64,000 bases of DNA from Niabella beijingensis (GTDB lineage: Bacteria; Bacteroidota; Bacteroidia; Chitinophagales; Chitinophagaceae), in assembly GCF_020034665.1 (NCBI RefSeq), contig NZ_JAIQDI010000002.1, positions 1,426,001 through 1,490,000 on the forward strand, given 5' to 3'. The notes under the pieces were generated by a model. That model ran no database searches and was not told the origin of the DNA. It worked only from the letters and a program-made list of their open reading frames with translations. A program made the position numbers and the translations under genes. Position 1 is the first letter of the stretch. Every line of letters begins with the position of its first letter. This document shows positions 13,740 to 50,994 of the stretch, piece after piece.

Positions 13740-13783
13740 CAAGTCTATGATAATGGTTAACAGGGGCAGTGATTACTGTCATC
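13740..13783 (-). promoter_or_regulatory. Dyad promoter for alcohol dehydrogenase-USP operon
   Basis: The dyad is 13769-13783 (plus-strand GTGATtactgTCATC). On the minus strand the -7-like box TAGACTTG occupies 13747-13740, with its first base 28.5 nt from the dyad centre. This is slightly shorter than the usual spacing and the box has one mismatch. Confidence 0.6.
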
Positions 13784-13885
13784 TTTATTATAGGACTTTT
13801 TGCTGGAAGCTGGATTTTCTTATGATACGGTTGAAATGGTTGGCTTATGCCGACGAAATGTTTTTGATGGCCGTTAGCGGCGGAA

Positions 13886-13930
13886 GTGATGATCATCATT
13901 GATTTTGCAGTGTGCAAGGAAATACATTTG
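13886..13930 (+). promoter_or_regulatory. Dyad promoter for USP at 13947
   Basis: GTGATgatcaTCATT at 13886-13900 and a perfect -7 box TACATTTG at 13923-13930; centre-to-box distance 30.5 nt. The predicted transcript start lies just upstream of ATG 13947, which fixes that codon as the gene start. Confidence 0.75.
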
Positions 13931-13946
13931 GAGAATAATCGCAATT

Positions 13947-14720
13947 ATGTTTAAAGTATTAGTTGCTTCTGAAGGTGCGACGATCAGTCCGACGGTTTTT
14001 GAGTTTATTAAGCAAATGAACCGAAATACTCCCGTTTTGCTTTCCGGTTTGTTTTTGCCAAAATTACATTTTATTGATCTGTTGTCTGCTGGTTCTTCCG
14101 TAAGGGAGGAACTGTTGTATGATGAAAAAATGCATTGGGAATTAGTTACAATCGTTTATGAGTTTATAAATTTTTGCAAATGCAATAATATCAATTATAC
14201 ACTCTATTCGGATAGCGGCCAATTTGAGCTGCCAGAATTGCAACGTGAAACCCGATTCGCGGATCTGCTCATTATTGGCGAAGAGCTATTGAAGAGTGGT
14301 AACACAGACAGTCGGCCTGGAAAATACCTGGAAAAGCTCCTCCAAGATTGTGAGTGTCCGGTGGTTGTAATTCCTGAAAAGTATACTGCTCCGACTAAGA
14401 ATATTATTGCTTTTGATGGGAGCGAAGCTGCTGTTCTTGCGTTGAAACAGTTTTCACATCTATTGCCTGGATTTGCAGCAAATGAGACATTGTTTGTCGC
14501 CGTTTCCAATGATAGCGTGAGAGACGATTCAATACTTAAAGAAGGGCAGTTAACTGAGGTAGCAAACAGTCATTATCCATTTTATAGGATGGAGCCGGAG
14601 ATTGGGAATATGCTGGAGTATTTTTCCGGGGAAAAGAGTTCAGAGAAAGCGATGATTGTTGCCGCAACTTGTACAGCGCTTCCCTGCTTTGGAGCGCCTA
14701 TGTTTATAACTGGCTATTAA
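13947..14720 (+). CDS. Universal stress protein, tandem domains, shortened C-terminus
   Basis: A 257-residue tandem UspA protein from ATG 13947 (MFKVLVASEGATISPTVFEF). A longer in-frame start at 13899 is rejected because the promoter lies inside it. Domain 1 ends ECPVVVIPEKYTAPTKN and domain 2 begins IIAFDGSEAAVLALKQF. The end (KAMIVAATCTALPCFGAPMFITGY) keeps the final strand but lacks the GAxGRSxxSQxF loop seen at 34523-35341, as if an internal segment had been lost. It should bind nucleotide poorly in domain 2 (inference). The next USP follows after 33 nt. Confidence 0.85.
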   Translation: MFKVLVASEGATISPTVFEFIKQMNRNTPVLLSGLFLPKLHFIDLLSAGSSVREELLYDEKMHWELVTIVYEFINFCKCNNINYTLYSDSGQFELPELQRETRFADLLIIGEELLKSGNTDSRPGKYLEKLLQDCECPVVVIPEKYTAPTKNIIAFDGSEAAVLALKQFSHLLPGFAANETLFVAVSNDSVRDDSILKEGQLTEVANSHYPFYRMEPEIGNMLEYFSGEKSSEKAMIVAATCTALPCFGAPMFITGY

Positions 14721-14753
14721 GTGATAGGTCTCAAGGTTTTAAAAATAGTAATT

Positions 14754-15590
14754 ATGAAAAAAGTAATATTTATGACAGATGCGTGCTCTTTAGATTGTAA
14801 TGCCCTGGACTTCGCCTGTTTTATTGCAGGCAACGCAAAGGCTTCACTAAAGGGCTTGTTTTTCGAAGACGCTGATTATGTTGATGATGCTGTATTATCT
14901 GATTTAAGTCCTTCTCCATGTGGGGATATCCTGGGAGAACCGGATACCGTGGGTTTCGAAACCAGTACCGAAATTCAGGCACTTAATATTCAGCGGTTTA
15001 AAGATTTCTGTGCAAAAAGGAATATAACGTGCACCGTTCGCTGTTTGGGGAAGGCAGATTTAGATAATGCTTTGATAGAGAGCCGGTTTGCCGATCTCAT
15101 TGTTGCCGGAGGAAAAATGTCCTTTCCTGATGAGAAAAACCGCTTCCCATCTCCCTTTTTAAGGGGAGTACTACAAAAAGCCGAATGTCCGATAATCATT
15201 TCATCTGAGCGGATCAGGTATGTTGAAGAGATCATTTTAGCGTATGATGGTTCTGCATCATCGGTATTTGCAATCCGGCAATTTGCGTACCTATTATCTT
15301 TTTTTGACAGCAAGCGCATTATTGTAGTTCAGGTTGGAGATGTTTCGGAAGTATCCTATAAGCAACAGATTAGTGAATTACTAAAAGGATACTATTCGCA
15401 AATAGGATATGAGGTTTTACATGGAGAAGACCCTGCGTTTGAGTTGTTTAATTTTTTGAAAAAAAGGGATCATTGTTTTATTGTTATGGGGGCCTACGGC
15501 CGCGCCTATTTATCTCAATTATTTAAGGACAGTACAGCAACACCTCTGATACAATTATTGAAGCAGCCTGTTTTTATTACACATTGCTAA
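14754..15590 (+). CDS. Universal stress protein, tandem domains
   Basis: A 278-residue tandem UspA protein from ATG 14754 (MKKVIFMTDACSLDCNALDF); the in-frame start 33 nt upstream adds residues lacking in paralogues. Domain 1 contains ESRFADLIVAGGKMSF and ends CPIIISSERI. Domain 2 starts EIILAYDGSASSVFAIRQFAYL and ends with an intact nucleotide-loop region CFIVMGAYGRAYLSQLF and PVFITHC. It is closely similar to 35378-36202. It is probably co-transcribed with the preceding USP, since no separate dyad is visible in the 33-nt gap. Confidence 0.9.
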   Translation: MKKVIFMTDACSLDCNALDFACFIAGNAKASLKGLFFEDADYVDDAVLSDLSPSPCGDILGEPDTVGFETSTEIQALNIQRFKDFCAKRNITCTVRCLGKADLDNALIESRFADLIVAGGKMSFPDEKNRFPSPFLRGVLQKAECPIIISSERIRYVEEIILAYDGSASSVFAIRQFAYLLSFFDSKRIIVVQVGDVSEVSYKQQISELLKGYYSQIGYEVLHGEDPAFELFNFLKKRDHCFIVMGAYGRAYLSQLFKDSTATPLIQLLKQPVFITHC

Positions 15591-15644
15591 AAGGATATTT
15601 TGGGATGGTCACGTTTTTTGAGATGACAAAGGTAAATTGATCTG

Positions 15645-15688
15645 GTGATCTGAGTCATTCCGTGGCAGTGTATCAGAAAATAGATTTG
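15645..15688 (+). promoter_or_regulatory. Dyad promoter for USP at 15796
   Basis: GTGATctgagTCATT at 15645-15659 with a perfect TAGATTTG at 15681-15688; centre-to-box distance 29.5 nt. The predicted 5' UTR is about 100 nt. Confidence 0.75.
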
Positions 15689-15795
15689 TATTTATAAGGA
15701 TCATTTTTAATACAGAATTAAATGAACAGCTATTAAAAGTATCATTTCTCACTCTAAGAGATTAATAAATTTTTAGAAATCAATATTTTTTAAAT

Positions 15796-16611
15796 ATGAA
15801 AACTATTATTGCCGCCACGAACTTCTCCAAGGCCGCCAATCATGCGGTTGCTTTTGCAGCGGATGTGGCCTGTTTACTAAAAGGCCGCCTGGTTATTTTT
15901 AATGTCGTCGATATTCTGCCGGTAACTACCGACGCACAGGTTCCCATAGATTTCTATGAGGTAGCGGAAGAAGAGGCAGATAAATCCTTGTCAGAATTGG
16001 CATTGGAAATGAAGAAGCGGACAAATAACGAGATTGAAATTAAAGCCCTTTATAAAGTAGGAACAGTGGCAACTCAGCTGGATACTTTGTGTGATGAAGA
16101 AGATCCACTGGCTATTTTTATTGCTTCTGAGTTTGTTACGGTGTTTGAGCGGTTGTTGTGGGGCTCACATGCTATTCCCATTGCAAAACATAGTTCCTTC
16201 CCGGTTATTGTTGTGCCGGCGAATGCAATGATGAAGGATTTTAAAAAGATGGGTATTGCGATCGACCTGGAGCATAGAAGTCACATTCAATGGCAGTTTT
16301 TACGGGACTGGTTAAAATTATTTAATGCTGAAGTGGATATAGTAGCGGTGTCACCCGCTGCAGAATTGACTTCCAGGGGGGTACCACTTACAATTGATAC
16401 ACAAGAGCAGCTGGGGAGCTACAAAGTGAGCTATCATTTTGTAGCCAATAATGATGTTGAGGACGGTATCAGGGAATATGTTACAAAAAATACTCCTGAT
16501 TTGCTGGTAATGTTTGTTCAGAAACATGGAATTCTTCATAAAAGTATAACAAAGTCATTTATCTTATTGCCTCCGGTGCCTGTCATGTTTATTTCCCAGG
16601 AAGTAAAGTGA
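15796..16611 (+). CDS. Universal stress protein, tandem domains
   Basis: A 271-residue tandem UspA protein starting MKTIIAATNFSKAANHAVAFAADVA, the branch shared with 30939-31757. Domain 1 shows WGSHAIPIAKHSSFPVIVVPA; domain 2 starts KMGIAIDLEHRS and ends PDLLVMFVQKHGILHKSITKSF and PPVPVMFISQE. Domain 2 has lost the typical DGS and GxxG signatures and is therefore probably structural. No membrane segment. It may be read through into PEP synthase 135 nt downstream, which lacks a clear dyad of its own. Confidence 0.87.
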   Translation: MKTIIAATNFSKAANHAVAFAADVACLLKGRLVIFNVVDILPVTTDAQVPIDFYEVAEEEADKSLSELALEMKKRTNNEIEIKALYKVGTVATQLDTLCDEEDPLAIFIASEFVTVFERLLWGSHAIPIAKHSSFPVIVVPANAMMKDFKKMGIAIDLEHRSHIQWQFLRDWLKLFNAEVDIVAVSPAAELTSRGVPLTIDTQEQLGSYKVSYHFVANNDVEDGIREYVTKNTPDLLVMFVQKHGILHKSITKSFILLPPVPVMFISQEVK

Positions 16612-16746
16612 AAATTGATAAAGCATTATGGCAAAGTTTTGCAGAGCAACCGGTTGTCTGGATGCGCCATTTTGGGTAGATTATTCCTCCGACTAAGGTT
16701 TTGATTTAGAGTAGACAAGAGTTGATGATCATTTTTTAGAAGCAGA

Positions 16747-19131: not shown

Positions 19132-19158
19132 CAGATACAGCAATGGTCATAAAGCTAG

Positions 19159-19203
19159 GTGATCCAGGTCATTGGATGATGACTGTTTGATCAACTACTT
19201 TTA
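19159..19203 (+). promoter_or_regulatory. Dyad promoter for Hsp20 at 19280
   Basis: GTGATccaggTCATT at 19159-19173 and TACTTTTA at 19196-19203; centre-to-box distance 30.5 nt. The dyad is almost identical to that of the USP at 15796. Confidence 0.75.
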
Positions 19204-19861: not shown

Positions 19862-21451
19862 TTAGGATTCCATTTGAAAGTTGAGCTCAAATGTAGTTCC
19901 TGTATCCAATTGACTGTCACAGGTAATGGTGCCGTTTAACAGTTCAACATATTTGCTAACGATATGAAGCCCCAGGCCGGTTCCCTGAACATTCACTGCG
20001 TTCGCACCACGAAAAAATCGTTCAAACAAATGGTGCTGATCTTCCTGCGAGATCCCGATGCCTTTATCAGCGACTGATATTTTCAGGTTCTCTGGTGTTC
20101 GTGTACTTCGGAGTTCGATAACGCTATCTTCAGGTGAGAATTTTATCGCATTGGAAAGCAAGTTCATTAAAATGTGTTTCATCAGGGATGGATCCAGGTC
20201 AATTTGCAATGCTCCATTGTGTTGGTAGTGTATTTGCTGATTTTTTTTTAGTAATCCGTTCAACTCATTTGTGATCTGCTGTAAGTGTTGTTTTATATCG
20301 AATATACTACGCCGTAATTGAATTTTGCCTTCTTCGATCTTTCCTACAGAAAGAAAGTCATTTAATATATCTGTGAGCATATTTACAGAGGAAACAATAC
20401 GCTGTATATGCTTGTCTCTGCGATGCTGGTCTTCCTTTTCGGCGTATTTAGATATCAGATAGGCTGATGAGAGTACTGTGCTAAGAGGTGTTCTAAATTC
20501 GTGGGAAGCAATGGACACAAATCTCGACTTTAACTCACTCAGTTCTTTCTCCTTTTGCAACGCAACAAGCAGGTCCGTTTCAGCTTTCTTTCGCTTGGAG
20601 ATATCCATGGCGATCATTAGGTATCCTTCAATTTCTCCCTTAATGTTACGCATTGCGGTAAAAGTTTGAGAGACGGGGAAGTGCGTATCATCTTTTCTTT
20701 CATAATATACTTCTACTTCACTTGATATTCCACTATTGGCTTTCTCAAGCAAGCTGGATAAAGATATTTCTGTTTCGTTCAGGAAAATGGAAGGGGTCTT
20801 TTTACCGACCAATTCTGTACCACTATATTGCAATAGCCTTTCGGCAGCAGGGTTAATCATCCTGATAACGCTGGCATCATCTGTTACAATAATAATGGCT
20901 TCAGCATGGTTCCAGATGTTTTTTAGGAATATATTAATCCGGTTAAGTTCGGTATCCTTTGCTTCGGTTTCTGCTATGAGCGCTGCTAATTGTTTTACAG
21001 TGCTTTTAAGCGTCACCGTTCGTTCTTCGACCTTTTGTTCCAGTTCTTCGTTGAGTCGCTGCAAGGCCTGTTCTACTTCCTTTCTTTTAGAGATATCGCT
21101 TAAGAACGCAATCACATATTTACCCTGTTCTGTTTGGTAACTTCCCAGGCTGACTTCTACCGGGAATTCCGTTCCATTCTTTCGGATTGCATATAAATCC
21201 AGGCCCAATCCCATGGGCCTGTTTTTGGGGTGCTCATTATAGTGCTGTACATGAGTGACATGCCGTTCATGATAGCGTTCGGGAATCAATTTTTCAATTT
21301 TCTGCCCAAGCAATTCTTTTTCTGAATAGCCAAATTGTTTGAGAAGAAATGGGTTTACTAATACAATGACTCCTAGCTCATTTGCTACCATTATGCCTAA
21401 TGATGCATTGGTGAAGAGGACGTCGAATCCAATGCCGGTATCCTTATTCAT
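19862..21451 (-). CDS. PAS-PAS sensor histidine kinase
   Basis: A 529-residue cytosolic hybrid-free kinase without membrane segments. PAS 1 (about 10-125) and PAS 2 (about 175-295) are separated by a coiled coil (LQRLNEELEQKVEERTVTLK). HisKA carries the phospho-accepting histidine in SIASHEFRTPLSTV (about 314). HATPase_c has the N box LMNLLSNAIKF, G1 VADKGIGI and G2 GTGLGLHIV (about 501-509). Being soluble, it should sense an internal cue such as oxygen or redox through PAS; no heme or flavin ligand can be proven. The receiver-CRP protein at 28016-29074 is a plausible partner (inference). Its upstream lacks the dyad. Confidence 0.92.
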   Translation of the reverse strand: MNKDTGIGFDVLFTNASLGIMVANELGVIVLVNPFLLKQFGYSEKELLGQKIEKLIPERYHERHVTHVQHYNEHPKNRPMGLGLDLYAIRKNGTEFPVEVSLGSYQTEQGKYVIAFLSDISKRKEVEQALQRLNEELEQKVEERTVTLKSTVKQLAALIAETEAKDTELNRINIFLKNIWNHAEAIIIVTDDASVIRMINPAAERLLQYSGTELVGKKTPSIFLNETEISLSSLLEKANSGISSEVEVYYERKDDTHFPVSQTFTAMRNIKGEIEGYLMIAMDISKRKKAETDLLVALQKEKELSELKSRFVSIASHEFRTPLSTVLSSAYLISKYAEKEDQHRRDKHIQRIVSSVNMLTDILNDFLSVGKIEEGKIQLRRSIFDIKQHLQQITNELNGLLKKNQQIHYQHNGALQIDLDPSLMKHILMNLLSNAIKFSPEDSVIELRSTRTPENLKISVADKGIGISQEDQHHLFERFFRGANAVNVQGTGLGLHIVSKYVELLNGTITCDSQLDTGTTFELNFQMES

Positions 21452-21635
21452 GACTGTTGATTTGGCAACTCAAAGGTAATGATTATTACTTGTTATTTTT
21501 TAACAATAATATTTTGATAATCAGCGAATTGCTTTCTGTTGGTTAAATGGTTGCTTAACCTGGGAATGTTGTTTTTTTATAATAAGCTATTAATCCTCTG
21601 CGAGACTCAAAACAATAATAATAATCAGCAAATAG

Positions 21636-21680
21636 TTAATCACTGTCATTTATTTGCCTCCCTTATCAGGTTTATATTTG
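21636..21680 (+). promoter_or_regulatory. Dyad promoter for sRNA copy 1
   Basis: TTAATcactgTCATT at 21636-21650 (left half degenerate, right half perfect) and a perfect -7 box TATATTTG at 21673-21680; centre-to-box distance 30.5 nt, the same as for copy 2. Confidence 0.7.
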
Positions 21681-21684
21681 TACC

Positions 21685-21889
21685 AGATTCAATTCAATTG
21701 CAGTCGGAAAGTAAGAATTTCAGATATAGCTGTATTAAAGGGCAGTAAACTGAATATTTTAAACGCAGAAAAAAAACTGTTAGCTTAACCGGGACACAAC
21801 TGAATTGATTAAGTTTCCACAGAATAAACGTTGTAAAAGACCATAAACTGTGGTCATCGGTTTAAGGCAGGCTGAAAGCCTGCCTTTTT
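21685..21889 (+). ncRNA. Candidate regulatory sRNA, copy 1 (about 205 nt)
   Basis: It runs from the predicted start just after TATATTTG to an intrinsic terminator (GGCAGGC 21866-21872, loop, GCCTGCC and T-run to about 21889). It is paired with a paralogue at 23020-23223 that is nearly identical in its last 70 nt. A long-range helix is possible between 21689-21700 and 21797-21808 (11 pairs with one mismatch), conserved in both copies. Two mutually exclusive hairpins near the 3' end are GACCA/TGGTC (21839-21855) and CCACAG/CTGTGG (21817-21853). The two copies differ by a 1-nt indel that breaks any shared reading frame, and no ATG opens after the start site, so it is read as noncoding. Target and identity are unknown. 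Confidence 0.7.
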
Positions 21890-22041
21890 ATGCAGAACTG
21901 AATTGGGAACGAATCTGGAAAGACCTCCTTGCACTGTTTTCTGCTCATAGGGAACCTCAATTTGCCATTGCTTTTTGCCATATTGTCAACGCTGGTACAA
22001 ACCGGCCATTAAAAATTACATAGCAACGTTCATGATTTGAA

Positions 22042-22686
22042 TTATATAGAGATTATACCTCTACGAAGCATATTCTTAACTATATAATGTGCATAGCTGG
22101 CAGCCATAGTCTGCGTGAGATCTCTGCTGAATGCTTTGGATTGCCCAGACCATAAAAGTGTTCCTGCAGACACTTGGTACAGATTGCTTTCTAACAAAAC
22201 TTCTAAATTTATTATCATATATCCCGGATCTCTATAAGACTCCCATACCCTATAACAATAACCGTAAAATCTATGATAAAAATCAACCGGAGTATAATAA
22301 CCATTACCTGGAACCCATCGATCATGCTCCTGACTGTCCAGCACTCTTACCGTCAATATGCCATCGAATTGTTTGGACAATAACGCCTCTCTCATCTTTG
22401 TAGAATCCTGTTGGGTCGCAAAATCAGGACCAAATTCATCAAGACTTGTCATTGCAGGTATAGAATTTGCCCACAACTCCCTCTTTATCTGATCTTCCTC
22501 CAGCTTTCTCTTTGGCAGATCCTGCCCGATAGCCACAACTAATATTTTGGAAAACTTTATTGCCCGACTATCCTTATCGCTCCAGGATGCTGTTAGACGA
22601 ATTGAAGAGCCACAGGAAATGAATAAGCACTGACCAAAAAATAAAAACAGCAGGAAAAGTAATTTTGAGTTGATATTCTTCTTCAT
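22042..22686 (-). CDS. DUF4136-like lipoprotein
   Basis: A 214-residue lipoprotein from ATG 22686 (MKKNINSKLLFLLFLFFGQC, lipobox ending FISC near residue 25); an earlier in-frame ATG at 22716 is less likely. The body has LTASWSDKDSRAIKFSKILVV, then DGILTVRVLDSQEHDRWVPG and a tyrosine-rich stretch, ending LLWSGQSKAFSRDLTQTMAASYAHYIV, which resembles DUF4136-type outer-membrane lipoproteins. Function unknown. It sits between the two sRNA copies on the opposite strand and has its own dyad promoter. Confidence 0.7.
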   Translation of the reverse strand: MKKNINSKLLFLLFLFFGQCLFISCGSSIRLTASWSDKDSRAIKFSKILVVAIGQDLPKRKLEEDQIKRELWANSIPAMTSLDEFGPDFATQQDSTKMREALLSKQFDGILTVRVLDSQEHDRWVPGNGYYTPVDFYHRFYGYCYRVWESYRDPGYMIINLEVLLESNLYQVSAGTLLWSGQSKAFSRDLTQTMAASYAHYIVKNMLRRGIISI

Positions 22687-22805
22687 AACATCTGAGTTTT
22701 CAATATTTGCTACCAAGTTTTAATCCTTTGTTGAATGTTTCTATCAGACCGAACGCTATTGCATCACTTTTCGATGCCAATTAGAAAATGTCCATTATAT
22801 ACATT

Positions 22806-22850
22806 GTAAGATAGCGTGGACCCTGGTCAAGAAAAAATGAGCATTATCAA
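22806..22850 (-). promoter_or_regulatory. Dyad promoter for DUF4136-like lipoprotein
   Basis: On the minus strand: TTGATaatgcTCATT (plus coordinates 22836-22850) and box TATCTTAC at 22813-22806; centre-to-box distance 30.5 nt. The box deviates at its last two positions but matches the TATCTTAG boxes of other units. Confidence 0.65.
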
Positions 22851-22970
22851 TGAACCAGATGATTATATGTTTTTTAGTATAATGTTTCTGTAATCATAGA
22901 GATCGCTCTATTACCAATGACAATATGGCCATTCATTATGGAGGAAAAATGATGACAATTGCCGGAATTG

Positions 22971-23015
22971 TTGACCGTTGTCATTTTATTGGCCTATTCG
23001 GAGCGTTTATCTTTA
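22971..23015 (+). promoter_or_regulatory. Dyad promoter for sRNA copy 2
   Basis: TTGACcgttgTCATT at 22971-22985 and TATCTTTA at 23008-23015; centre-to-box distance 30.5 nt. The flanking sequence is poorly conserved relative to copy 1 apart from these elements, which argues for selection on them. Confidence 0.75.
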
Positions 23016-23019
23016 TACT

Positions 23020-23223
23020 AGATTCAATTCAATTGCAGTCGGAAAGTAAGGAGTTCAGATATATCTGTTTAAAGGGCAGTAAGCTGAATATTTTAAACGC
23101 AGAATAAAAACTGTTAACTTAACCAGGATACAACTGAATTGATTAGGTCACCACAGAATAAACGTTGTAAAAGACCATAAACTGTGGTCATCGGTTTAAG
23201 GCAGGCTGAAAAGCCTGCCTTTT
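23020..23223 (+). ncRNA. Candidate regulatory sRNA, copy 2 (about 204 nt)
   Basis: Paralogue of 21685-21889. Both share AGATTCAATTCAATTGCAGT near the 5' end, TATTTTAAACGCAGAA in the middle and the whole 3' third. The terminator is GGCAGGC (23200-23206) with its complement GCCTGCC and a short T-run ending near 23223. Roughly fifteen substitutions and a few one-base indels separate the copies, and the conserved pairings (TCAATTCA/TGAATTGA, GACCA/TGGTC, CCACAG/CTGTGG) are kept. No coding frame is shared. Alternative: part of a 6S-like RNA family, which cannot be decided by eye. Confidence 0.72.
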
Positions 23224-23350
23224 GTTAATCAAATTGGATAACAGAACCTGGCATTTTAGTTGGGCTTCTGTGAATACCTTTTTTTTGCGCTTCAATATGC
23301 CCAGTGTGATTGCTTGTTGAAGTAGATTCCAGTTTCTCTTTTTTCCCGTA

Positions 23351-24187
23351 TTAGGTGTGTGCAACAAATAAAGGATACTTCATTTCTTTCATTAATACAT
23401 CAGCCATACTGGTCCGGAACCAACGGCTGACCGCGCTACGGCTATAAGCGCCTAAGGCTATAAATATCCCTTCTTTCTCCCGTTTCAGATAATTGATAAT
23501 TTCCGTTTCAGGAGCTCCTTTCAGCGCAGTATATTGGGCCTTCGGGAAATGGCGTTTCAGGAATTCTTTAAGTAATTTATTGTCAGGAAAATGCAGTGTC
23601 TCGTCGTCTGCCTTTACTGTTAATACTGTCGTTGGCAATTGCTTCAAAGCGTCCAGTGTATAGCTAAGCATTTTGATAGCATGTACAGACGACGGCTCGC
23701 CATCATATAATAATATTACTTTGTTGATCGGCTTAAAGGAATGTGGTACCAGGATAACGGGGCAGTACACACCGCTTAGCAGGTCGCGGATAAACATACT
23801 CGGAATTTTTTCAGTGTATGACGTGAGGGTTTCTGTGCTGTCAATTAATAAAAGATCGGCAAAAATACTTTCATGCAATAACTCTTGTATGGCGACACAT
23901 TTATTACGATGCAGCGAATAGGTTAGCGATGCATGCTGGCAGGCCTTTTCGAAATCAGACACAGACTGATCTCTCATCTTTTCGTCCTTCTGTTCGTATT
24001 TCTTTCGTTTTGCTTCAAATTCGCCGTCTTGCTTTAGCAATTCAGCTATTTTGTAACTGTGGTGCATAAAATCATCAAGGAAAACCCCGATTAAATGTGC
24101 ATTGTTTTGTGTTGCAAGCTGGATGGCATAGTCTCTAACACTTTCCGAATATTTAAGGCCGTCAAATGCTACAATATATTTTTTCAT
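23351..24187 (-). CDS. Universal stress protein, tandem domains
   Basis: A 278-residue tandem UspA protein from ATG 24187 (MKKYIVAFDGLKYSESVRDYAIQLA). Domain 1 contains HESIFADLLLIDS and ends CPVILVPHSFKPI. Domain 2 begins KVILLYDGEPSSVHAIKML and has the nucleotide-loop segment FIALGAYSRSAVSRWFRTSMADVLM and PLFVAHT. Both DG(S/L/E) signatures are kept, so ATP binding is plausible. It is transcribed alone from a dyad promoter. Confidence 0.92.
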   Translation of the reverse strand: MKKYIVAFDGLKYSESVRDYAIQLATQNNAHLIGVFLDDFMHHSYKIAELLKQDGEFEAKRKKYEQKDEKMRDQSVSDFEKACQHASLTYSLHRNKCVAIQELLHESIFADLLLIDSTETLTSYTEKIPSMFIRDLLSGVYCPVILVPHSFKPINKVILLYDGEPSSVHAIKMLSYTLDALKQLPTTVLTVKADDETLHFPDNKLLKEFLKRHFPKAQYTALKGAPETEIINYLKREKEGIFIALGAYSRSAVSRWFRTSMADVLMKEMKYPLFVAHT

Positions 24188-25096: not shown

Positions 25097-25141
25097 TTGA
25101 TAATAATCATTGTAATCTGCTTGCTATATAGCGCAACTTTA
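25097..25141 (+). promoter_or_regulatory. Dyad promoter for NimA-like protein
   Basis: TTGATaataaTCATT at 25097-25111 and CAACTTTA at 25134-25141; centre-to-box distance 30.5 nt. The first box base is C instead of T. Predicted 5' UTR about 110 nt. Confidence 0.65.
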
Positions 25142-25891: not shown

Positions 25892-26050
25892 TTAACGAGC
25901 CTTAACGACCATGTCGTATAGCTTCCAAAACAGGTCAATAAAGGCGTCTTTGATTATATGGCGGCCAAAAAACAAAACAGAACTAATAATAAAGGCGCTT
26001 GTTATAAAAGCCATTAACTTTTCTTTACTTATATACGGGTATGCTTCCAT
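25892..26050 (-). CDS. Small membrane protein, about 52 aa
   Basis: The start is set at ATG 26050 because the predicted transcript begins near 26077. It encodes MEAYPYISKEKLMAFITSAF, then ISSVLFFGRH, one transmembrane helix at about residues 13-32, followed by an amphipathic, charged tail (IKDAFIDLFWKLYDMVVKAR). No family recognised. Its best support is external: a dyad with a perfect -7 box at the standard distance directly upstream. Without that, I would not have called so short a frame. Confidence 0.6.
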   Translation of the reverse strand: MEAYPYISKEKLMAFITSAFIISSVLFFGRHIIKDAFIDLFWKLYDMVVKAR

Positions 26051-26080
26051 GATATAAACTGATTTGGATGAATGGATACC

Positions 26081-26125
26081 CAAAGCTATTGTCAGGATAA
26101 CTGTAATACAATGAACCTGGTCATC
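26081..26125 (-). promoter_or_regulatory. Dyad promoter for the small membrane protein
   Basis: Minus-strand GATGAccaggTTCAT (plus 26111-26125, TGA-N6-TCA) and a perfect TAGCTTTG at 26088-26081; centre-to-box distance 29.5 nt. The box is identical to that of the USP at 23351-24187. Confidence 0.7.
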
Positions 26126-29074: not shown

Positions 29075-29506
29075 TGTGCTAAGTGTTCTTAATGTAAGAA
29101 AAATACCAAAGGCAACTGATGATAATTCCAAATAGCAATTTCCAAAATTGGCTGATCCAAATCCTGACTCCAAAAGCGATCAAATGTGGTTGTCTGGCCG
29201 ACATTCAAGAGGAAATTATTGTCAGGGGAGTGTCAATGTATTAATATGAACTGACCTGCTAACCGTACCTTTAAATATCCTTTGGTTTAACAAATATACC
29301 AATAAATTGATGGGTTAATTTATATTTCCTTTATATTTGATAAATGCGATTTTATTTGTTATAAAATAATTTAAAATGTTGATTATCATTTTATTATAAA
29401 AAATGACAGAAACTATAAATACACCGGTGGAGTAGTAAATGCCGGGCACTTCCAGCATCCGGTTTTTAATGCCTCAAACAGCATTCCGTGATAGGCTGCT
29501 GCTCGA
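29075..29506. other. 432-nt intergenic region
   Basis: It lies between the regulator's start and the end of the BON gene on the same strand. The part next to the BON stop is AT-rich with a run TTTATTATAAAAAATGACAG but no clear terminator. I see no dyad at standard spacing and no coding remnant. Confidence 0.35.
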
Positions 29507-30652: not shown

Positions 30653-30696
30653 CTAAAATAAGAACAAAAATGAAGGGTTACAATGACCAAAATCAT
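30653..30696 (-). promoter_or_regulatory. Dyad promoter for Hsp20-BON operon
   Basis: Minus-strand ATGATtttggTCATT (plus 30682-30696), flanked so that CAATGA and TCATTG form a six-base perfect dyad, and box TATTTTAG at 30660-30653; centre-to-box distance 29.5 nt. Confidence 0.7.
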
Positions 30697-30825: not shown

Positions 30826-30869
30826 CTGATTAATCTCATTGATTCAAAAAAAGGCTGATTTTATTTTTA
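30826..30869 (+). promoter_or_regulatory. Dyad promoter for USP at 30939
   Basis: CTGATtaatcTCATT at 30826-30840 and TATTTTTA at 30862-30869; centre-to-box distance 29.5 nt. Predicted 5' UTR about 65 nt. Confidence 0.7.
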
Positions 30870-31848: not shown

Positions 31849-31892
31849 ATGACGAATGTCATTAAAATCTGTCGTATGATAGAATAATTTTG
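31849..31892 (+). promoter_or_regulatory. Dyad promoter for hypothetical-CoA transferase operon
   Basis: ATGACgaatgTCATT at 31849-31863 and a perfect TAATTTTG at 31885-31892; centre-to-box distance 29.5 nt. The start codon at 31910 is only about 13 nt after the predicted transcript start. Confidence 0.75.
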
Positions 31893-34457: not shown

Positions 34458-34501
34458 TTGATTATTGTCATAGATAAGCGACAGTGGTTACCGTAGTTTT
34501 A
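34458..34501 (+). promoter_or_regulatory. Dyad promoter for USP pair and PolX operon
   Basis: TTGATtattgTCATA at 34458-34472 and TAGTTTTA at 34494-34501; centre-to-box distance 29.5 nt. The next start codon is about 20 nt downstream. Confidence 0.72.
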
Positions 34502-38723: not shown

Positions 38724-38747
38724 CGATGACAGGACTCAAACATGCCG

Positions 38748-38791
38748 GTGATGACAGTCATTGAAATAGGATGAAGCCAAAGTTAAATTTG
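38748..38791 (+). promoter_or_regulatory. Dyad promoter for BON protein at 38855
   Basis: GTGATgacagTCATT at 38748-38762 and a perfect TAAATTTG at 38784-38791; centre-to-box distance 29.5 nt. It is one of the best sites of the set. Confidence 0.8.
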
Positions 38792-39935: not shown

Positions 39936-40157
39936 TTAAGTTTTTTTTGCTCCGTTAGGCTCAATTTCAAAGCTGAGTTTGGCAACAATGCGATACTCAG
40001 TAATTTTATTGTTTTTAACTACAGCACTGTGATCTTTGATATACACAGAGCGGATATTTTTGACGGTTTGGGAAGCTTCATGTACCGCTTGAGATACGGC
40101 GTCCTCCCAACTTTTAGTGGAGCTGGCCATTAGTTCCAATACTTTTACAATTGCCAT
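39936..40157 (-). CDS. Dodecin
   Basis: A 73-residue dodecin beginning MAIVKVLELMASSTKSWEDA with the family sequence SQTVKNIRSVYIKDHSAVVKNNKI and beta-rich end EYRIVAKLSFEIE. Dodecins form dodecamers that store or buffer flavins and bind their isoalloxazine between tryptophans; Trp 17 is the candidate stacking residue. It lies 48 nt downstream of the YtxH gene on the same strand and is probably co-transcribed from the dyad promoter. The flavin link agrees with the PNPOx-type flavoproteins in the island. Confidence 0.93.
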   Translation of the reverse strand: MAIVKVLELMASSTKSWEDAVSQAVHEASQTVKNIRSVYIKDHSAVVKNNKITEYRIVAKLSFEIEPNGAKKT

Positions 40158-40205: not shown

Positions 40206-40397
40206 TTATGCGGGTTCCTGCTTTGTTGCTTTTGACCGGCCAAATGCATTGTCCGTTTTTGACGCCATTTTTTTGCAGGCTGCCATTATTTTTTTTCTGG
40301 TGTCACTACCTTTTTCTGGAGCAAATAGGCTGCCTATAGTAGCACCCGCGGCCAGACCCGCTGCAACCGCTGTCAAAGTTTTACTAAGCTGATTCAT
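40206..40397 (-). CDS. YtxH domain protein
   Basis: A 63-residue protein with a glycine/alanine-rich membrane helix (TLTAVAAGLAAGATIGSLFAPEKG) followed by a basic helix (DTRKKIMAACKKMASKTDNA). It matches the YtxH family of general-stress proteins, typically induced with stress regulons in Firmicutes and Bacteroidota. Function unknown. It is first in the YtxH-dodecin pair and preceded by a dyad promoter. Confidence 0.85.
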   Translation of the reverse strand: MNQLSKTLTAVAAGLAAGATIGSLFAPEKGSDTRKKIMAACKKMASKTDNAFGRSKATKQEPA

Positions 40398-40422: not shown

Positions 40423-40468
40423 CTAAGATAATCTGATCAGTGGCCGATAAAAAATGATGCGACTCATC
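40423..40468 (-). promoter_or_regulatory. Dyad promoter for YtxH-dodecin
   Basis: Plus-strand ATGATgcgacTCATC at 40454-40468 (minus GATGAgtcgcATCAT) and minus box TATCTTAG at 40430-40423; centre-to-box distance 30.5 nt. A second dyad, ATGATgcaggTCAAT (40476-40490), is 22 nt further upstream, the same offset seen at 24301. Confidence 0.7.
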
Positions 40469-40570
40469 AGACGTGATGATGCAGGTCAATTTGAAGCAGG
40501 ACTGTTAGGAAGTGCATAAAAGATAGGAACTGATGATTGCTGCCGCTGGCTTTGGCAGTCATTATTAGGG

Positions 40571-40615
40571 ATGATTAAAGTCATTTATTCTATGAGGAAT
40601 TTCCTGGTATTTTAG
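40571..40615 (+). promoter_or_regulatory. Dyad promoter for phospholipase D
   Basis: ATGATtaaagTCATT at 40571-40585 and TATTTTAG at 40608-40615; centre-to-box distance 30.5 nt. Confidence 0.7.
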
Positions 40616-41948: not shown

Positions 41949-41992
41949 ATGATGAAGATCATCGGTCTTTGCGATGTAGAATGATAATTTCG
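41949..41992 (+). promoter_or_regulatory. Dyad promoter for mlaEFD
   Basis: ATGATgaagaTCATC at 41949-41963 and TAATTTCG at 41985-41992; centre-to-box distance 29.5 nt, one mismatch in the box. Confidence 0.65.
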
Positions 41993-45194: not shown

Positions 45195-45238
45195 TAAATG
45201 TACAACCGTCATCCATCTGCCAGGATGATACTTATCAA
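45195..45238 (-). promoter_or_regulatory. Dyad promoter for YciF-like gene
   Basis: Minus-strand TTGATaagtaTCATC (plus 45224-45238) and box TACATTTA at 45202-45195; centre-to-box distance 29.5 nt. Its dyad centre is only 22 nt from that of the divergent plus-strand promoter. Confidence 0.72.
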
Positions 45239-45246: not shown

Positions 45247-45291
45247 CTGATTGAAGTCATTGGTTCCCTATTATTGAATAGAGTTACTTTG
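45247..45291 (+). promoter_or_regulatory. Dyad promoter for bactofilin-like membrane protein
   Basis: CTGATtgaagTCATT at 45247-45261 and TTACTTTG at 45284-45291; centre-to-box distance 30.5 nt. It predicts a long 5' UTR of about 170 nt before the start codon at 45468. Confidence 0.6.
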
Positions 45292-46643: not shown

Positions 46644-46768
46644 TACGTAATATTTTATTATATAAGCAATGCCCGCAAAAATGACTTTCACGTCCGGCCG
46701 TGCTGCCTGCAGGTTAAATCAAAGAGTTAATGGTATATATCAAAGTTGATGAAAAAAATTATTTCATT

Positions 46769-47899
46769 ATGAAAACTAAAATTCCTGTGAATGGTACACT
46801 TTCCTCCTTGAGAAAGGAGGATGGGAATACTTGCATCTCCGTAATACTTCCGGCACATCAATTCTCGACAGAAAAAGCACTGATCAAAAATACTTTGAAT
46901 GATGCCCTGGCTAAAGTGAAGGAATTATTGTATTACGAGGGTCGGGAGGCTGAAATAGAAGTTTTAATGCGATACGCAGATGAGTTGTCAGGGACCATCG
47001 ATTTTACAAACAATGCAGAAGGTTTGGGACTTTTTGTATCTTCTGGTGCTAAATTGGTTGTAAGATTTCCTTTTCCGGTAGAGGAAAAGGTAATGGTGAC
47101 GGATCATTTTGAATTACGAGAATTAATGTACAAGGAGTACTATGCAACTCCTTATTATCTTCTATTGCTTACGGCACAGGGCGGCCGCTTGTTTCAGGGC
47201 AGCTGGAATACAGTTTTTGAAATAAAGGATAATGGTTTTCCAATGAGTTATACAGATGATTATATATACGCAAGGCCTGCACATAGTTCGTCTTCTGCAG
47301 GCTATGCGCATGTAAAAGATTTTGAAAAAGATAAATCGGAATTGGAAACCATACGGTTGAGAGACTTTTTCCGGCATCTGGATAAAGCGCTGGACGCCTG
47401 TCTGGTAACGGATGCACCATTGATAGTACTGGGAGTAAAGAAAGAACTGTCCCTGTTTGCTCAGGTTAGTAGCCATTTACAACAGGTTATTGATAAAATT
47501 GCAGGTAACTATAATCATGATAATAAAAAACAACTTGCCCAGCTGGCCTGGAACGTGATGCTGCGGTATTTTGAGAATGAAGCAAAAGATCTTATGGAAA
47601 CATTTGAGGAAAAACTAGGTGAGCATCTTGGCCTTTCAGACATCCAGGATATCTGGGTGGCTGCCCGGGAAGGAAGAGGACTAAAGTTGCTGGTGGAAAA
47701 AGATTACAGGCGACCTGCATTTCTTGCAGAAAACGAGTATCATCTTTATCTGCATCCTCCCAAAAAAATGAAAAAAGCATTGCCGGATGTTGTTGCCGTT
47801 ATTATTGAAAGCGTATTAGAGAAAAATGGCAGTATTTGTTTTGTAGAGAACGGGTTACTAAAACAGTATAACAGGATGGCTTTAATATTGCGTTATTGA
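46769..47899 (+). CDS. baeRF/Balon-like ribosome hibernation factor candidate
   Basis: A 376-residue protein, starting at ATG 46769 (an earlier ATG at 46730 is possible). CISVILPAHQFSTEKALIKNTLNDAL near the start, then beta-rich AKLVVRFPFPVEEKV and LLLLTAQGGRLFQG, and a C-terminal domain with VVAVIIESVLEKNGSICFVE. This layout matches bacterial homologues of archaeo-eukaryotic release factor subunit 1 (baeRF), a group including Balon and the mycobacterial DosR-regulated Rv2629. The assignment is from memory of family features and is moderate. No dyad directly upstream; may be read through from the 45468 gene. Confidence 0.6.
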   Translation: MKTKIPVNGTLSSLRKEDGNTCISVILPAHQFSTEKALIKNTLNDALAKVKELLYYEGREAEIEVLMRYADELSGTIDFTNNAEGLGLFVSSGAKLVVRFPFPVEEKVMVTDHFELRELMYKEYYATPYYLLLLTAQGGRLFQGSWNTVFEIKDNGFPMSYTDDYIYARPAHSSSSAGYAHVKDFEKDKSELETIRLRDFFRHLDKALDACLVTDAPLIVLGVKKELSLFAQVSSHLQQVIDKIAGNYNHDNKKQLAQLAWNVMLRYFENEAKDLMETFEEKLGEHLGLSDIQDIWVAAREGRGLKLLVEKDYRRPAFLAENEYHLYLHPPKKMKKALPDVVAVIIESVLEKNGSICFVENGLLKQYNRMALILRY

Positions 47900-47970
47900 A
47901 TAATGCCCTGAATCCGGCTTTTAAATCGATCCGATATATCCAGAATACATTCAACCTGAAAAAAAGGCAT

Positions 47971-48966
47971 ATGTCAAAGCAAGAAAAAAGCGCAATACCG
48001 AAGCAGATAGCTCCGATGCTTTGTAAATTAGTGAGGGCGCTTCCTGAACTGGAAAATTATTTGTATGAGATCAAATGGGACGGTTACCGCGCTATTTCCT
48101 ATGTAAAGGAGAGTATGGTTCATATGGATTCCAGAGGCGGACTTAACTATACTGCCAGGTACCCGCAAATAGAAAAAGCGCTGAGGAACTTAAAGCATGA
48201 TGTAATCATTGACGGAGAGATAGTAGTTTTCAATGATGAAGGGAAACCTGATTTTGATGCACTTCAAAAATATAATGGTGAAAATACGCCAATCAGCTAC
48301 TGCGTTTTTGATTTGCTGTGGCTGGACGGCCAAAACCTGGAACAGCGTCCACTGACGGAAAGAAAGGAATTATTGAAGGAACTTGTAAATAAGCGTGCAG
48401 TTTTTAAGTTCAGTAAAAGCTTTGATGATGGGCAGTCATTATACAAGCAAATGCTGTCTCAGAATCTTGAAGGCGTTGTAGCAAAGCGCAAAGATAGTCC
48501 ATATAGGGAAGGGGAGCGTGGTAATGACTGGTTAAAAATCCCAACAAGGAAGCGGCAGGAGTTTGTAATTGGGGGCTGGGCTGAATCTTCCAAAAAGCGT
48601 CCTTTTAAAAGCCTTCTTTTCGGGGCCTATGAAAATGACCGGTTTACCTGGATTGGCCGTAGCGGAGGTGGCTATAAGGAAAAAGAAATGGTTGATATTC
48701 TGGAGAAGCTTAAGGCACTGGAAATGAAAACTTCTCCCTTTGTGAATCCGGTCCTGGACGCTAAAGGGGCGATGGTACATTATGTACGCCCAAGGCTTGT
48801 TGCTAATTTTGAATTCGCTACCTGGACAAAAACGGGAAGAATCCGAAAACCTGCAACATTTTTGGGTTTCCGCAACGACAAAAGGCCTGCAGATGTGGTA
48901 CGGGAAATACCCGAAACCCTAAATGCAATCAAGAATGAGGTTGCGAATGCCAAAACGGATCGCTAA
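47971..48966 (+). CDS. ATP-dependent DNA ligase
   Basis: A 331-residue ligase from ATG 47971. The nucleotidyl lysine lies in YEIKWDGYRAISY (Lys about 30). Other motifs include IDGEIVVF (about 82-89), YCVFDLLWLDG, EGVVAKRKDSPY (about 168-179) and WLKIPTRKRQEFVIGG, followed by an OB domain. It resembles the ligase domain of LigD without polymerase and nuclease domains. It should seal nicks with ATP; the cell will also have NAD-dependent LigA. Together with PHP-less PolX it may form an end-repair pair in the regulon. Confidence 0.92.
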   Translation: MSKQEKSAIPKQIAPMLCKLVRALPELENYLYEIKWDGYRAISYVKESMVHMDSRGGLNYTARYPQIEKALRNLKHDVIIDGEIVVFNDEGKPDFDALQKYNGENTPISYCVFDLLWLDGQNLEQRPLTERKELLKELVNKRAVFKFSKSFDDGQSLYKQMLSQNLEGVVAKRKDSPYREGERGNDWLKIPTRKRQEFVIGGWAESSKKRPFKSLLFGAYENDRFTWIGRSGGGYKEKEMVDILEKLKALEMKTSPFVNPVLDAKGAMVHYVRPRLVANFEFATWTKTGRIRKPATFLGFRNDKRPADVVREIPETLNAIKNEVANAKTDR

Positions 48967-49044
48967 AAAAGCCGTTTTTGAATTTAATGCAGCACAAATA
49001 ACAAATGCAAAATTGTTATGCGGGAAACCCGGGCTAAGCTGAGA

Positions 49045-50058
49045 TCATTCGCTTCGCATTTTTCTATATACAAAAAAACCAACAATCATTGGCAGCCAAA
49101 ATGATAATGCCCTATATAAGATCGTGATTATCAGTGCTGAGCTAAGATGTACGCCGAGTCTTGAAAAAAAATAGGTCATACCACTTTCATATAAAATAAG
49201 CCCACCGGGAGATATTGGTAACAGAGAGATGATTCTTGTTAACAGAAAACCTGCAGATACCGTAAGCAGATTAATTGCTAAACCAAAGCCGTGAAACAGG
49301 GCCAAAATTGTAAAAGCATCTGAAAGGAAAATAAGAAACTGCAACCCCACTGCCCGATATACCGCCGTTTTGTGTTCGTGAAAAAATTGCGTAGGCCTTT
49401 CCACCTGCTCCTTTGTCGTAAAAAAGGTTTGAAACTTATCCGCCAGCTTTGTAAATAACTTTATTGATGCCAGTTTTTTTTGGAGGGCATCTATTGTATA
49501 TTTATTTGAAAGAACATTTACACTCAGGCCAAATAAAAAATAGACAATAAAACCGGTACCAAAAATAATATACAGTGAACCAGGTATGTTTAGAAAAAGC
49601 ATGCTGAGCATCACTACCAAAATAATAATGATTTCAATGGAAGCATAAAAACTTAAAAGCTCTACCGAAATGAGCGAAATTATATTAGAGACGGCAATTT
49701 TGCTTTTCTGCAAATAATTAAATAAAAAAGTATTACCACTGATTCCTGCGCTTGGGATGGTTTGATTAAAAAATAATGTAATAAAGCTGATCTTAAATAA
49801 CCTCCATACGGTCTGATGGATATGAATATCAAATCCGAGCAATAACTGCTGATAGACCATTGCCCCAAAGAAATAAGTGCCGATTTGACCTAAAACGGCG
49901 AGCAAAAGCCAATATGGATTTATCGTTTGGAAAAGCTCGAAATCCGTTTTGATTTCTCCAAAATAATAAACAGCAAATAGGGATATTAAAATGGCAAGCC
50001 CATAGAAGATGAGATTTCCTATTGAAAATAGTTTTTTATTTTCCGGTTTTTCATCCAT
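49045..50058 (-). CDS. LPG synthase/flippase-like (UPF0104) membrane protein
   Basis: A 337-residue protein with about eight helices, of the lysylphosphatidylglycerol synthase transmembrane/flippase family (AglD/MprF N-domain-like): NQTIPSAGISGNTFLFNYL (about 95-113) and LPISPGGLILYESGMTYFFS (about 276-295) carry the conserved signature. No C-terminal aminoacyltransferase domain, so it probably acts as a lipid flippase. It lies 60 nt downstream of the beta-barrel gene on the same strand. Confidence 0.82.
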   Translation of the reverse strand: MDEKPENKKLFSIGNLIFYGLAILISLFAVYYFGEIKTDFELFQTINPYWLLLAVLGQIGTYFFGAMVYQQLLLGFDIHIHQTVWRLFKISFITLFFNQTIPSAGISGNTFLFNYLQKSKIAVSNIISLISVELLSFYASIEIIIILVVMLSMLFLNIPGSLYIIFGTGFIVYFLFGLSVNVLSNKYTIDALQKKLASIKLFTKLADKFQTFFTTKEQVERPTQFFHEHKTAVYRAVGLQFLIFLSDAFTILALFHGFGLAINLLTVSAGFLLTRIISLLPISPGGLILYESGMTYFFSRLGVHLSSALIITILYRALSFWLPMIVGFFVYRKMRSE

Positions 50059-50118
50059 GACTTTAGGGCAGTTTAAAATTAGGTCCTGACTGGTTGGGAA
50101 AAAAGGTACAACTTCAGG

Positions 50119-50871
50119 TCACAATTCATATTGATATCCAAGACTTATTACAGCAGCCCCTGTTTTATTTTTGCCGTTAGCGCTATTTTTCTGAATGATG
50201 ATTAAACCATAATTGCCGCCAACTTCAAAAAAAATGCTGCCCCTTACAATCTTATAGCCTAAGCCCAGGTGACCCGTTATCCCCGCATTGAAACGATGCA
50301 AATCACTGATGATATTATCATTGCTATCGAATGATTGGGGCTCTGGACTAAGCGGCTGGGTTTTATTTTTATCCAGATAAATGAGGCTGGAGCCTTTTGT
50401 ACTATTTTTTGCATTTAAAAGGTAGCTGGCAAATGGTCCTGCCGCAATATAGGCTCCCCAGTTCTTTTTTAGATCCAAGCGATACTTAACTAATATGGGC
50501 AACATGAGGTAAGTCATTTTTGACTGGCTTTTGTAATCAGCATAAAGATAAGCTGGTGCGGCTCCGGGCGGGAATTGTTGCGCCATCTCATCCGGTATTT
50601 TAAAGGCCTGCATTCCATTCTTTTTCCCACCCTGAACTGAATGTTCCAATTGCGGCTGAATAGAGAAATGTTTATTGATGTGAAATTCAGCCTGTATGGC
50701 ACCATACCCATTTAATTGTGAGCTATACCCGGAACTAAGGGGGTTATCTGAATTTCCGGAAGTTAAATTAGGGATGCTTAGCCCCACTTTGAAACCCATT
50801 TCTATTTTCGATTGGGCGAAGGAAATCTTGACAATCAAAATAACTACTATAAAAAGCGTATAACGTTTCAT
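50119..50871 (-). CDS. Outer-membrane beta-barrel protein
   Basis: A 250-residue barrel (PorT/OmpA-like family), with signal peptide (hydrophobic residues 4-16, cleavage near FAQ). Repeated amphipathic strands (IEMGFKVGLSIPNL, AIQAEFHINKHFSIQPQLEH, GAYIAAGPFASYLL, GHLGLGYKIVRGSIFFEVGG) end AAVISLGYQYEL with the terminal aromatic typical of outer-membrane barrels. Ligand unknown. It is preceded by a dyad promoter on its own strand, so an outer-membrane protein belongs to the regulon. Confidence 0.85.
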   Translation of the reverse strand: MKRYTLFIVVILIVKISFAQSKIEMGFKVGLSIPNLTSGNSDNPLSSGYSSQLNGYGAIQAEFHINKHFSIQPQLEHSVQGGKKNGMQAFKIPDEMAQQFPPGAAPAYLYADYKSQSKMTYLMLPILVKYRLDLKKNWGAYIAAGPFASYLLNAKNSTKGSSLIYLDKNKTQPLSPEPQSFDSNDNIISDLHRFNAGITGHLGLGYKIVRGSIFFEVGGNYGLIIIQKNSANGKNKTGAAVISLGYQYEL

Positions 50872-50948
50872 TTGAATTCGATTTTTTTAGTGCAGTTGTC
50901 TCTCGTTAATAGTTGATCTATTGTTTTTTTAAAAAAACTAATTCAATG

Positions 50949-50994
50949 TAAAATTATCATTCCCGTTAAAGGCAGATCAATGATGTCAGTCACA
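50949..50994 (-). promoter_or_regulatory. Dyad promoter for beta-barrel gene
   Basis: Minus-strand TGTGActgacATCAT (plus 50980-50994) and box TAATTTTA at 50956-50949; centre-to-box distance 30.5 nt. The left half is a CRP-like TGTGA. Confidence 0.65.

Follow-up and report, generated by a model that had tools for sequence, protein, structure and literature searches.

A 64,000-nt stretch of the Niabella beijingensis genome (G000:C2:1426001-1490000 of a 6.59-Mb genome in three contigs; referred to below as the window) contains an island of about 37 kb (13740..50994) in which a CRP/FNR-type operator and a Bacteroidota -7 box keep a constant spacing. This arrangement probably marks a low-oxygen two-component regulon with class II promoters, in which a FixL-like kinase would act on a receiver-CRP protein that unites FixJ-like and FixK-like parts in one chain. 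The pattern described in the original prediction for this DNA is real and its reading is sound; we add to it the FixL-like kinase, a structured small RNA, tandem operators 22 bp apart, and an extension past 51 kb.

Exact TGA-N6-TCA dyads occurred 54 times in the window, compared with 18.1 ± 4.2 in shuffled DNA (none of 100 shuffles reached 54; the original prediction had expected about 15). The intergenic DNA of the island (7,168 bp) held 30 of them, compared with 2.7 ± 1.6 after shuffling (maximum 10 in 300 shuffles), and that of the flanks (3,932 bp) held one. We scored a dyad as paired when a -7 box with at most one mismatch to TANNTTTG lay at a gap of 22 to 25 nt, that is, with the dyad centre 28.5 to 31.5 nt from the box. 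By this measure, 19 of the 30 island dyads were paired, while shuffled DNA, proposed beforehand as the decisive comparison, yielded 0.23 pairs (maximum 3 in 300 shuffles). The centre distance was 29.5 or 30.5 nt in 16 of the 19 pairs (gap 23, n = 9; gap 24, n = 7). The previously reported pairing was thus confirmed, including all five named examples (15645/6, 19159/60, 31849/50, 34458/9, and 38748/9), and the counts given with it, about 24 promoters with about 21 at these two distances, were somewhat high.

With a weight matrix derived exclusively from 174 sites of other Bacteroidota loci, a threshold of 16 bits gave 20 hits in the island and none in the 26.7 kb of the two flanks. The 20 hits represent 19 distinct sites, because the minus-strand hit at 31850 is a palindrome read in reverse. 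In 400 kb of evenly spaced DNA from the same genome, the matrix gave six hits (0.56 per 37.3 kb). Matrices with wrong gaps gave 0 to 4 island hits, except those with gap 45/46 (8 hits), where a tandem operator is expected. The absence of the pattern from the flanks was therefore borne out for the window, which lacked both pairs and matrix hits there, but the geometry is also present elsewhere in the genome. That almost every island gene has such a site proved too strong a statement: a site was found at most 320 bp upstream of 15 of the 34 tabulated island genes, and some genes without a site of their own lie within operons.

The sites are conserved. In five relatives, whose regulators are 92, 91, 91, 84, and 78% identical to that of the window, we looked for a site before the best tblastn hit of each island gene. 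A site was kept in 39 of 49 gene-relative pairs if the window gene had one of at least 16 bits, compared with 8 of 68 pairs if it had none (p = 6e-14); this count covers 34 genes from 13944 to 50119, and the best hits of universal stress protein (USP) genes may be paralogs. The same comparison gave 39/49 versus 10/95 for all 48 genes from 11417 on, and 30/39 versus 6/63 when only hits of at least 45% identity were used. Among relatives, one promoter can change between gaps 23 and 24 (34520, 40644, and 30165). The window and the islands of the five relatives (G202, G206, G211, G208, and G213) together had 34 sites at gap 23 and 29 at gap 24 (hand-summed from histograms; 5 and 1 in G208 alone), which differs from the 171 and 12 found in loci across the phylum (p = 2e-11). 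A link of gap 24 to Lys317 of the regulator was not supported, as the K317 loci had nine sites at gap 23 and one at gap 24.

The phylum loci came from a scan of genome contigs that used an alignment of 22 receiver-CRPs. Of 80 loci, 59 encoded a full-length protein; in those excluded (L080, L082, L084, and L086-L103), the match was limited to the receiver or extended barely further. By record title, the receiver-CRP loci belong to Chitinophagaceae, Sphingobacteriaceae, Flavobacteriaceae, Cytophagales-type genera, and others. In the 59 loci, a box followed intergenic dyads 161 times at gap 23 and 2 to 12 times (mean 5.8) at each of the other gaps, except for gap 45 (62 times). Gap-23 sites were present in 50 of the 59 loci and gap-45 sites in 32, compared with 2 to 10 loci for the other gaps. 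Gap 45 reflects a second dyad exactly 22 bp upstream: among 173 sites, 34 had one at -22 and 4 at -23, with 0 to 2 at every other offset from -40 to -12. The phylum consensus was [CA]TGA[TC]N4[AG]TCAT-N22-TANNTTT[GA]. As predicted originally, a TTG at -33 is missing, but the same holds for 161 TANNTTTG matches without a dyad in these loci, which makes its absence uninformative. The shuffles, the external matrix with its controls, the relatives, and these loci all support promoters in which a Bacteroidota -7 box follows a CRP/FNR-type operator at a constant spacing.

The receiver-CRP regulator encoded in the island, P0001, consists of a receiver followed by the Pfam domains cNMP_binding and HTH_Crp_2; its closest named relative (91% identity) is annotated Niabella pedocola. 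Using phmmer, we picked 58 regulators, as the remaining one of the 59 loci had none above 250 bits. The phosphoacceptor D53 and K105 were invariant (58/58 each), as in two-component response regulators. Likewise, E318 and R322 of the recognition helix were present in all 57 sequences with letters at these positions, and together with the cNMP fold and the HTH_Crp domain they place the protein in the CRP/FNR superfamily. The cAMP contacts of Escherichia coli CRP, which we take to be E72, R82, and S83, were not kept in a by-eye alignment of the 58 regulators: position 211 is Y, F, V, or another residue, 221 is R in 3/58, and 222 is E or D in 56/58. P0001 does not have the Fe-S ligand cysteines of FNR; its single Cys is located in the receiver, and therefore the protein lacks an FNR-type cluster. 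Since D53 and K105 are invariant, the cAMP contacts are not kept, and there is no such cluster, phosphorylation is the likeliest input to the regulator. The same genome contains a second receiver-CRP (L104, G000:C2:1922500-1942400, 9829-12118, minus strand) with 59% identity to P0001; it lies directly behind its own PAS kinase and adjoins a recombinase-like gene (by eye).

A histidine kinase gene ends just upstream of the regulator gene in 54 of 58 loci. Of the four others, L059 is truncated by the edge of its locus, a kinase was identified by tblastn for L074, and L024 and L046 have none. Five of the 54 adjacent kinases had no PAS match. In the 49 with one, the residue at what we take to be the proximal histidine position of FixL was His in 46, and 31 of these also had the distal Arg; in 37 hand-picked PAS domains, this His was one of six invariant columns (37/37). 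The first PAS domain of the window kinase matched the heme domains of FixL (1d06, E = 6e-13) and E. coli DosP. The structural model of this PAS domain (predicted local distance difference test [pLDDT] 92) had FixL structures as best PDB matches.

Two strong sites, 21637 and 22972, have no gene behind them. Each precedes a copy of one 210-nt sequence; the copies are 93% identical over 220 bases, are conserved in three relatives, and end in a hairpin with a T run (a terminator scan flagged only copy 2, with 1.5 expected by chance). A covariance model detected this RNA in five further genera among 79 genomes of the family (E = 1e-27 to 5e-13; four weak matches with E = 0.002 to 0.009 were ignored), and a second model, applied to 393 genomes of the order Chitinophagales, detected it in 13, the own genome included, adding 12 new copies. 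Among 22 distinct copies, 57 of 61 base pairs had changes on both sides, 88.7% of cells were paired compared with at most 49% when slid, and none of 500 shuffles reached the scores, all in an alignment fitted to the structure, which favours pairing statistics. No open reading frame (ORF) was common to the copies (longest, 6 to 42 codons); three Niabella-type copies share a frame of 24 to 29 codons from TTG that is absent in the others. Rfam 15 gave no match at gathering score in the window, and for 21560-23400 it gave sub-threshold matches only.

The promoter was not part of the covariance models. We searched for the best box 6 to 16 nt before 17 further copies and found it 8 to 11 nt before the RNA in all 17, with an exact TANNTTT in 12. 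The dyad at gap 22 to 25 was exact in 7/17. Dyad and box together reached at least 13 bits in 15/17 copies, including 10 of the 12 new ones, compared with 0.025% of 4,000 random places of the own genome to which the same scoring was applied; the two copies below this value, L182 and L184, have poor dyads. The neighbouring genes differ between genomes, and therefore promoter and RNA stay together. The fixed operator-box spacing and the start of the RNA just after the box indirectly suggest a class II operator position near -41.5. A genome from a different family of this order (G395, contigs 219 and 261) contains three copies (L182, L187, and L188), two of them 2.5 kb apart.

We then compared all 143 genes directly behind gap-23 sites with a random 130 of 862 site-less genes from the same loci. 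USP domains were found in 39/143 and 7/130, respectively (p = 7e-7). Smaller numbers behind sites were obtained for BON (5), thioredoxin (5), E1-E2 ATPase (4), S30AE (4), Hsp20 (3), and hemerythrin (3) domains; three of the four E1-E2 ATPases carry the metal-binding domain of FixI-type pumps.

According to a Pfam scan, the island proteins include USP domains, two Hsp20 and two BON proteins, a phosphoenolpyruvate (PEP)-synthase-like protein, zinc alcohol dehydrogenases (Zn-ADHs), acetyl-CoA hydrolase, L,D-transpeptidase, a phospholipase-D-like protein, MlaE/ABC/MlaD, baeRF, and ATP-dependent DNA ligase, in addition to the PAS-PAS histidine kinase and P0001. Three small ORFs behind minus-strand sites (40206-40397, 39936-40157, and 25892-26083) are kept in three relatives; by eye, the first two are YtxH-like and dodecin-like, with no assignment for the third. 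The last has 63 codons from a TTG at 26083 that lies inside the box, and an internal ATG is the likelier start.

The series of sites does not end at 51 kb as first described. A 23-bit operator-box site lies 355 bases beyond the window end (L114:2356, G000:C2:1490355), upstream of ackA-xfp-like genes (by eye), and the regulon therefore exceeds 37 kb. The ackA-xfp-like operon (by eye) occupies 60731-64000 of the window and continues past its end; a USP gene diverges from the same site, followed by P-type-ATPase- and qNOR-like genes (by eye) a few kilobases past the window. Confinement of the sites to the island was rejected, as others were found outside it. For two of these, G000:C1:854522 and C1:3775787, counterparts seem to exist in several members of the genus, not all of which have a protein closely related to P0001; a Cas9-like ORF (by eye) lies about 1.2 kb from the latter. 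Upstream of what by eye is an FNR-like gene (L113:6522-7533), at the cbb3 oxidase/FixI-like cluster, there is an operator-box site of 16.4 bits at gap 24.

Table 1. Regulators, small RNAs, and operator-box sites in the window (window coordinates; bit scores from the external matrix)
Feature	Position	Strand	Remarks
PAS-PAS histidine kinase	19862..21451	-	first PAS FixL-heme-PAS-like; His64 at FixL proximal His; Leu84 at distal Arg position
Receiver-CRP regulator P0001	28016..29077	-	Asp53, Lys105; recognition helix AKESLIR
Structured small RNA, copy 1	21684..21893	+	behind operator 21637..21680
Structured small RNA, copy 2	23019..23228	+	fold z -3.5; terminator stem 23198-23221
Operator TGATGATCATCA and box TACATTTG, gap 24	13887..13930	+	24.2 bits; before gene 13944-14720, no Pfam match
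Operator and box, gap 23	15646..15688	+	19.8 bits; before 15796 USP gene
Operator and box, gap 24	19160..19203	+	22.1 bits; before 19280 Hsp20 gene; site in 4/5 relatives
Operator (one mismatch) and box TATATTTG, gap 24	21637..21680	+	18.6 bits; promoter of small RNA copy 1
Operator and box, gap 24	22806..22849	-	18.7 bits; before gene 22042-22686, no Pfam match; site absent in the one of five relatives having this gene
Operator TGACCGTTGTCA and box TATCTTTA, gap 24	22972..23015	+	26.5 bits; promoter of small RNA copy 2
Operator and box CAACTTTA, gap 24	25098..25141	+	20.5 bits; before 25255 pyridoxamine-oxidase-like gene; site in 3/3 relatives having the gene
Operator and box TAGCTTTG, gap 23	26081..26123	-	20.1 bits; before conserved small ORF
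Operator and box, gap 23	30653..30695	-	26.9 bits; before 30165 Hsp20-like gene, then BON gene
Operator and box, gap 23	30827..30869	+	25.2 bits; before 30933 USP gene
Operator and box, gap 23	31850..31892	+	26.7 bits; before 31910 gene (no Pfam match), then acetyl-CoA hydrolase gene
Operator and box, gap 23	34459..34501	+	23.0 bits; before 34520 gene, no Pfam match
Tandem dyads 22 bp apart and box TAAATTTG, gap 23	38727..38791	+	21.4 bits; before 38855 BON gene
Tandem dyads 22 bp apart (40455, 40477) and box, gap 24	40423..40488	-	18.2 bits; before 40206-40397, 39936-40157
Operator and box, gap 24	40572..40615	+	24.7 bits; before 40644 phospholipase-D-like gene
Operator and box, gap 23	41950..41992	+	17.0 bits; before 42042 MlaE/ABC ATPase/MlaD genes
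Operator and box, gap 23	45195..45237	-	16.8 bits; before 44625 DUF892 gene
Operator, 22 bp from the dyad of 45195..45237, and box, gap 24	45248..45291	+	20.6 bits; before 45462 gene, no Pfam match
Operator and box, gap 24	50949..50992	-	20.7 bits; before 50119 outer-membrane beta-barrel gene

Matching by eye and the shortness of the dyad invite the explanation that AT-rich DNA, rich in TGA and TCA, produced the sites by chance. The shuffles, the wrong-gap matrices apart from the tandem gap, and the conservation in relatives led us to reject it as extremely improbable. A more serious question is which protein reads the sites, for which the receiver-CRP is a plausible candidate on the evidence of gene linkage and site frequency. 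Among 197 genomes of the class, 98 matched a receiver-CRP (E of 1e-60 or lower, including partial matches) and 99 did not; the strict dyad-23-box pattern occurred 1.87 times per Mb in the former and 1.05 times in the latter (p = 4e-6 for more sites per Mb with a receiver-CRP), compared with 0.15 and 0.17 for a reversed-pattern control. Several findings weigh against our interpretation. Even without a receiver-CRP match, the pattern was about sixfold enriched over the control, and therefore the receiver-CRP is not the sole CRP/FNR protein to use the geometry. Only 16 of 132 sites, among those listed for 15 regulator-bearing genomes, lie within 20 kb of the regulator gene. The own genome encodes CRP paralogs with similar helices (GTSTESAIR, GTATENAIR, and GTTYETISR). 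The regulator gene itself has no site of at least 12 bits upstream, either in the window or in the five relatives (a weak one of 11.8 bits is at 29377 in the window), and none of at least 16 bits was found around the second receiver-CRP. An exchange at residue 321 (I/S) did not co-vary with the base preceding TGA (p = 0.32), and modelling of the full-length regulator gave a poor structure (pLDDT 70). Furthermore, the window kinase has Leu in place of the distal Arg of FixL and is encoded 6.6 kb away from the regulator, and target classes other than USPs are thin (2-hydroxyacid dehydrogenases, 6/143 versus 3/130 controls; histidine kinases, 7 versus 8). Because other CRP/FNR proteins share the geometry, we infer, rather than observe, both the reader protein and the oxygen signal.

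The enrichment in genomes without a receiver-CRP, the paralogous helices, and the recurrence of some own-genome sites where the genus member has no close relative of P0001 would fit real class II sites whose reader is a different member of the CRP/FNR family, such as the FNR-like protein encoded at the cbb3 oxidase cluster. We regard this as unlikely given the intergenic gap-23 sites in most receiver-CRP loci, the higher site density in receiver-CRP genomes, and the 16 sites near the regulator gene, where about 1.3 of 132 are expected by chance (40 kb in about 4 Mb). It is somewhat doubtful, too, that the signal is nitric oxide, redox, or energy state instead of oxygen, sensed by the PAS kinase or as a ligand of the cNMP-like domain. 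The missing distal Arg, the hemerythrin domains in 3/143 genes behind sites, the qNOR-like gene past the window, and the cNMP-binding domain of the regulator speak for such a signal; against it, the kinase PAS is nearest to the oxygen sensors FixL and E. coli DosP in sequence and fold, the cAMP-contact positions are not conserved, and the USP/alpha-crystallin content fits a known low-oxygen locus (PMC6127331). Carbon sensing is predicted (PMC8510549) for certain CRP/FNR homologs in Flavobacteriales and Saprospiraceae, and therefore the signals of other CRP proteins in Bacteroidota may differ.

In the low-oxygen two-component system that we favour, low oxygen would be sensed through the FixL-like heme-PAS domain of a histidine kinase, which would phosphorylate Asp53 of the receiver-CRP. 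The CRP-type helix, with its invariant E318 and R322, would then bind [CA]TGA[TC]N4[AG]TCAT. The protein would occupy the place of the -33 element, 23 (here also 24) nt before the TAnnTTT[GA] -7 box, and recruit RNA polymerase, often with a second dimer bound exactly 22 bp further upstream, about two helical turns away. The candidate targets comprise genes for universal stress proteins, Hsp20, and BON proteins, genes of metabolism and of the envelope, and the 210-nt structured small RNA. The role would equal that of FixL-FixJ-FixK or DosS-DosR, with a FixJ-like receiver and a FixK-like DNA-binding part in one chain. Whether much of Bacteroidota supports low-oxygen survival in this way, through a FixL-type kinase and a FixJ/FixK fusion with one class II geometry, often with two dimers 22 bp apart, and whether Chitinophagales have in addition a new 210-nt structured regulatory RNA family as an FnrS counterpart, we consider evenly balanced. 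If true, Bacteroidota have a low-oxygen regulon of wide distribution whose promoter code is simple and testable, a three-step cascade is reduced to two proteins, and a conserved structured RNA absent from Rfam 15 is added. Activator-polymerase geometry also becomes directly testable through the exact 23-nt gap, in a phylum with promoters unlike the E. coli type. We found no paper on a receiver-CRP/FixL pair in Bacteroidota in the open-licence literature, which is weak evidence.

The sites would share with E. coli FNR and CRP class II promoters a dyad near -41.5 that covers the place of the -35 element; here, it is combined with a Bacteroidota TAnnTTTG box and with a presumably receiver-controlled regulator that lacks Fe-S cysteines and cAMP residues. 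Like FnrS-type anaerobic small RNAs, the RNA described here comes from an FNR-type promoter, but it is about 210 nt long and multi-stem, has no Rfam match, and was found in Chitinophagales, the only order searched. A putative heme sensor kinase, USPs, alpha-crystallin, and a regulated small RNA recall the DosR regulon, although DosR itself is a response regulator of the LuxR type and its operator differs. The FixK box is of the TGA-N6-TCA type. Unlike FixK, a stand-alone CRP/FNR protein, P0001 has an N-terminal receiver, and unlike FixJ, with its LuxR/GerE-type output, it has cNMP_binding and HTH_Crp_2 as output. The FixL-FixJ-FixK system of rhizobia, and FixLJ-FixK of Burkholderia as described in PMC5234846, share with the proposed system a FixL-like kinase, whose PAS domain is here a putative heme domain, a receiver, and a CRP/FNR-type activator on a TGA-N6-TCA-type dyad; here, in contrast, receiver and CRP-type DNA-binding part are one protein, which would act directly, without a cascade, at a Bacteroidota -7 box. 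By analogy of gene content, the target set resembles the lxa locus of Burkholderia cenocepacia and the DosR regulon of Mycobacterium tuberculosis. According to PMC6127331, USP/alpha-crystallin content is typical of the latter, and the former clusters USPs, alpha-crystallin, and metabolic genes, with a FixK-type CRP regulator proposed under FixLJ. The island shares this clustering with lxa, which belongs to another phylum and locus and has an unfused regulator.

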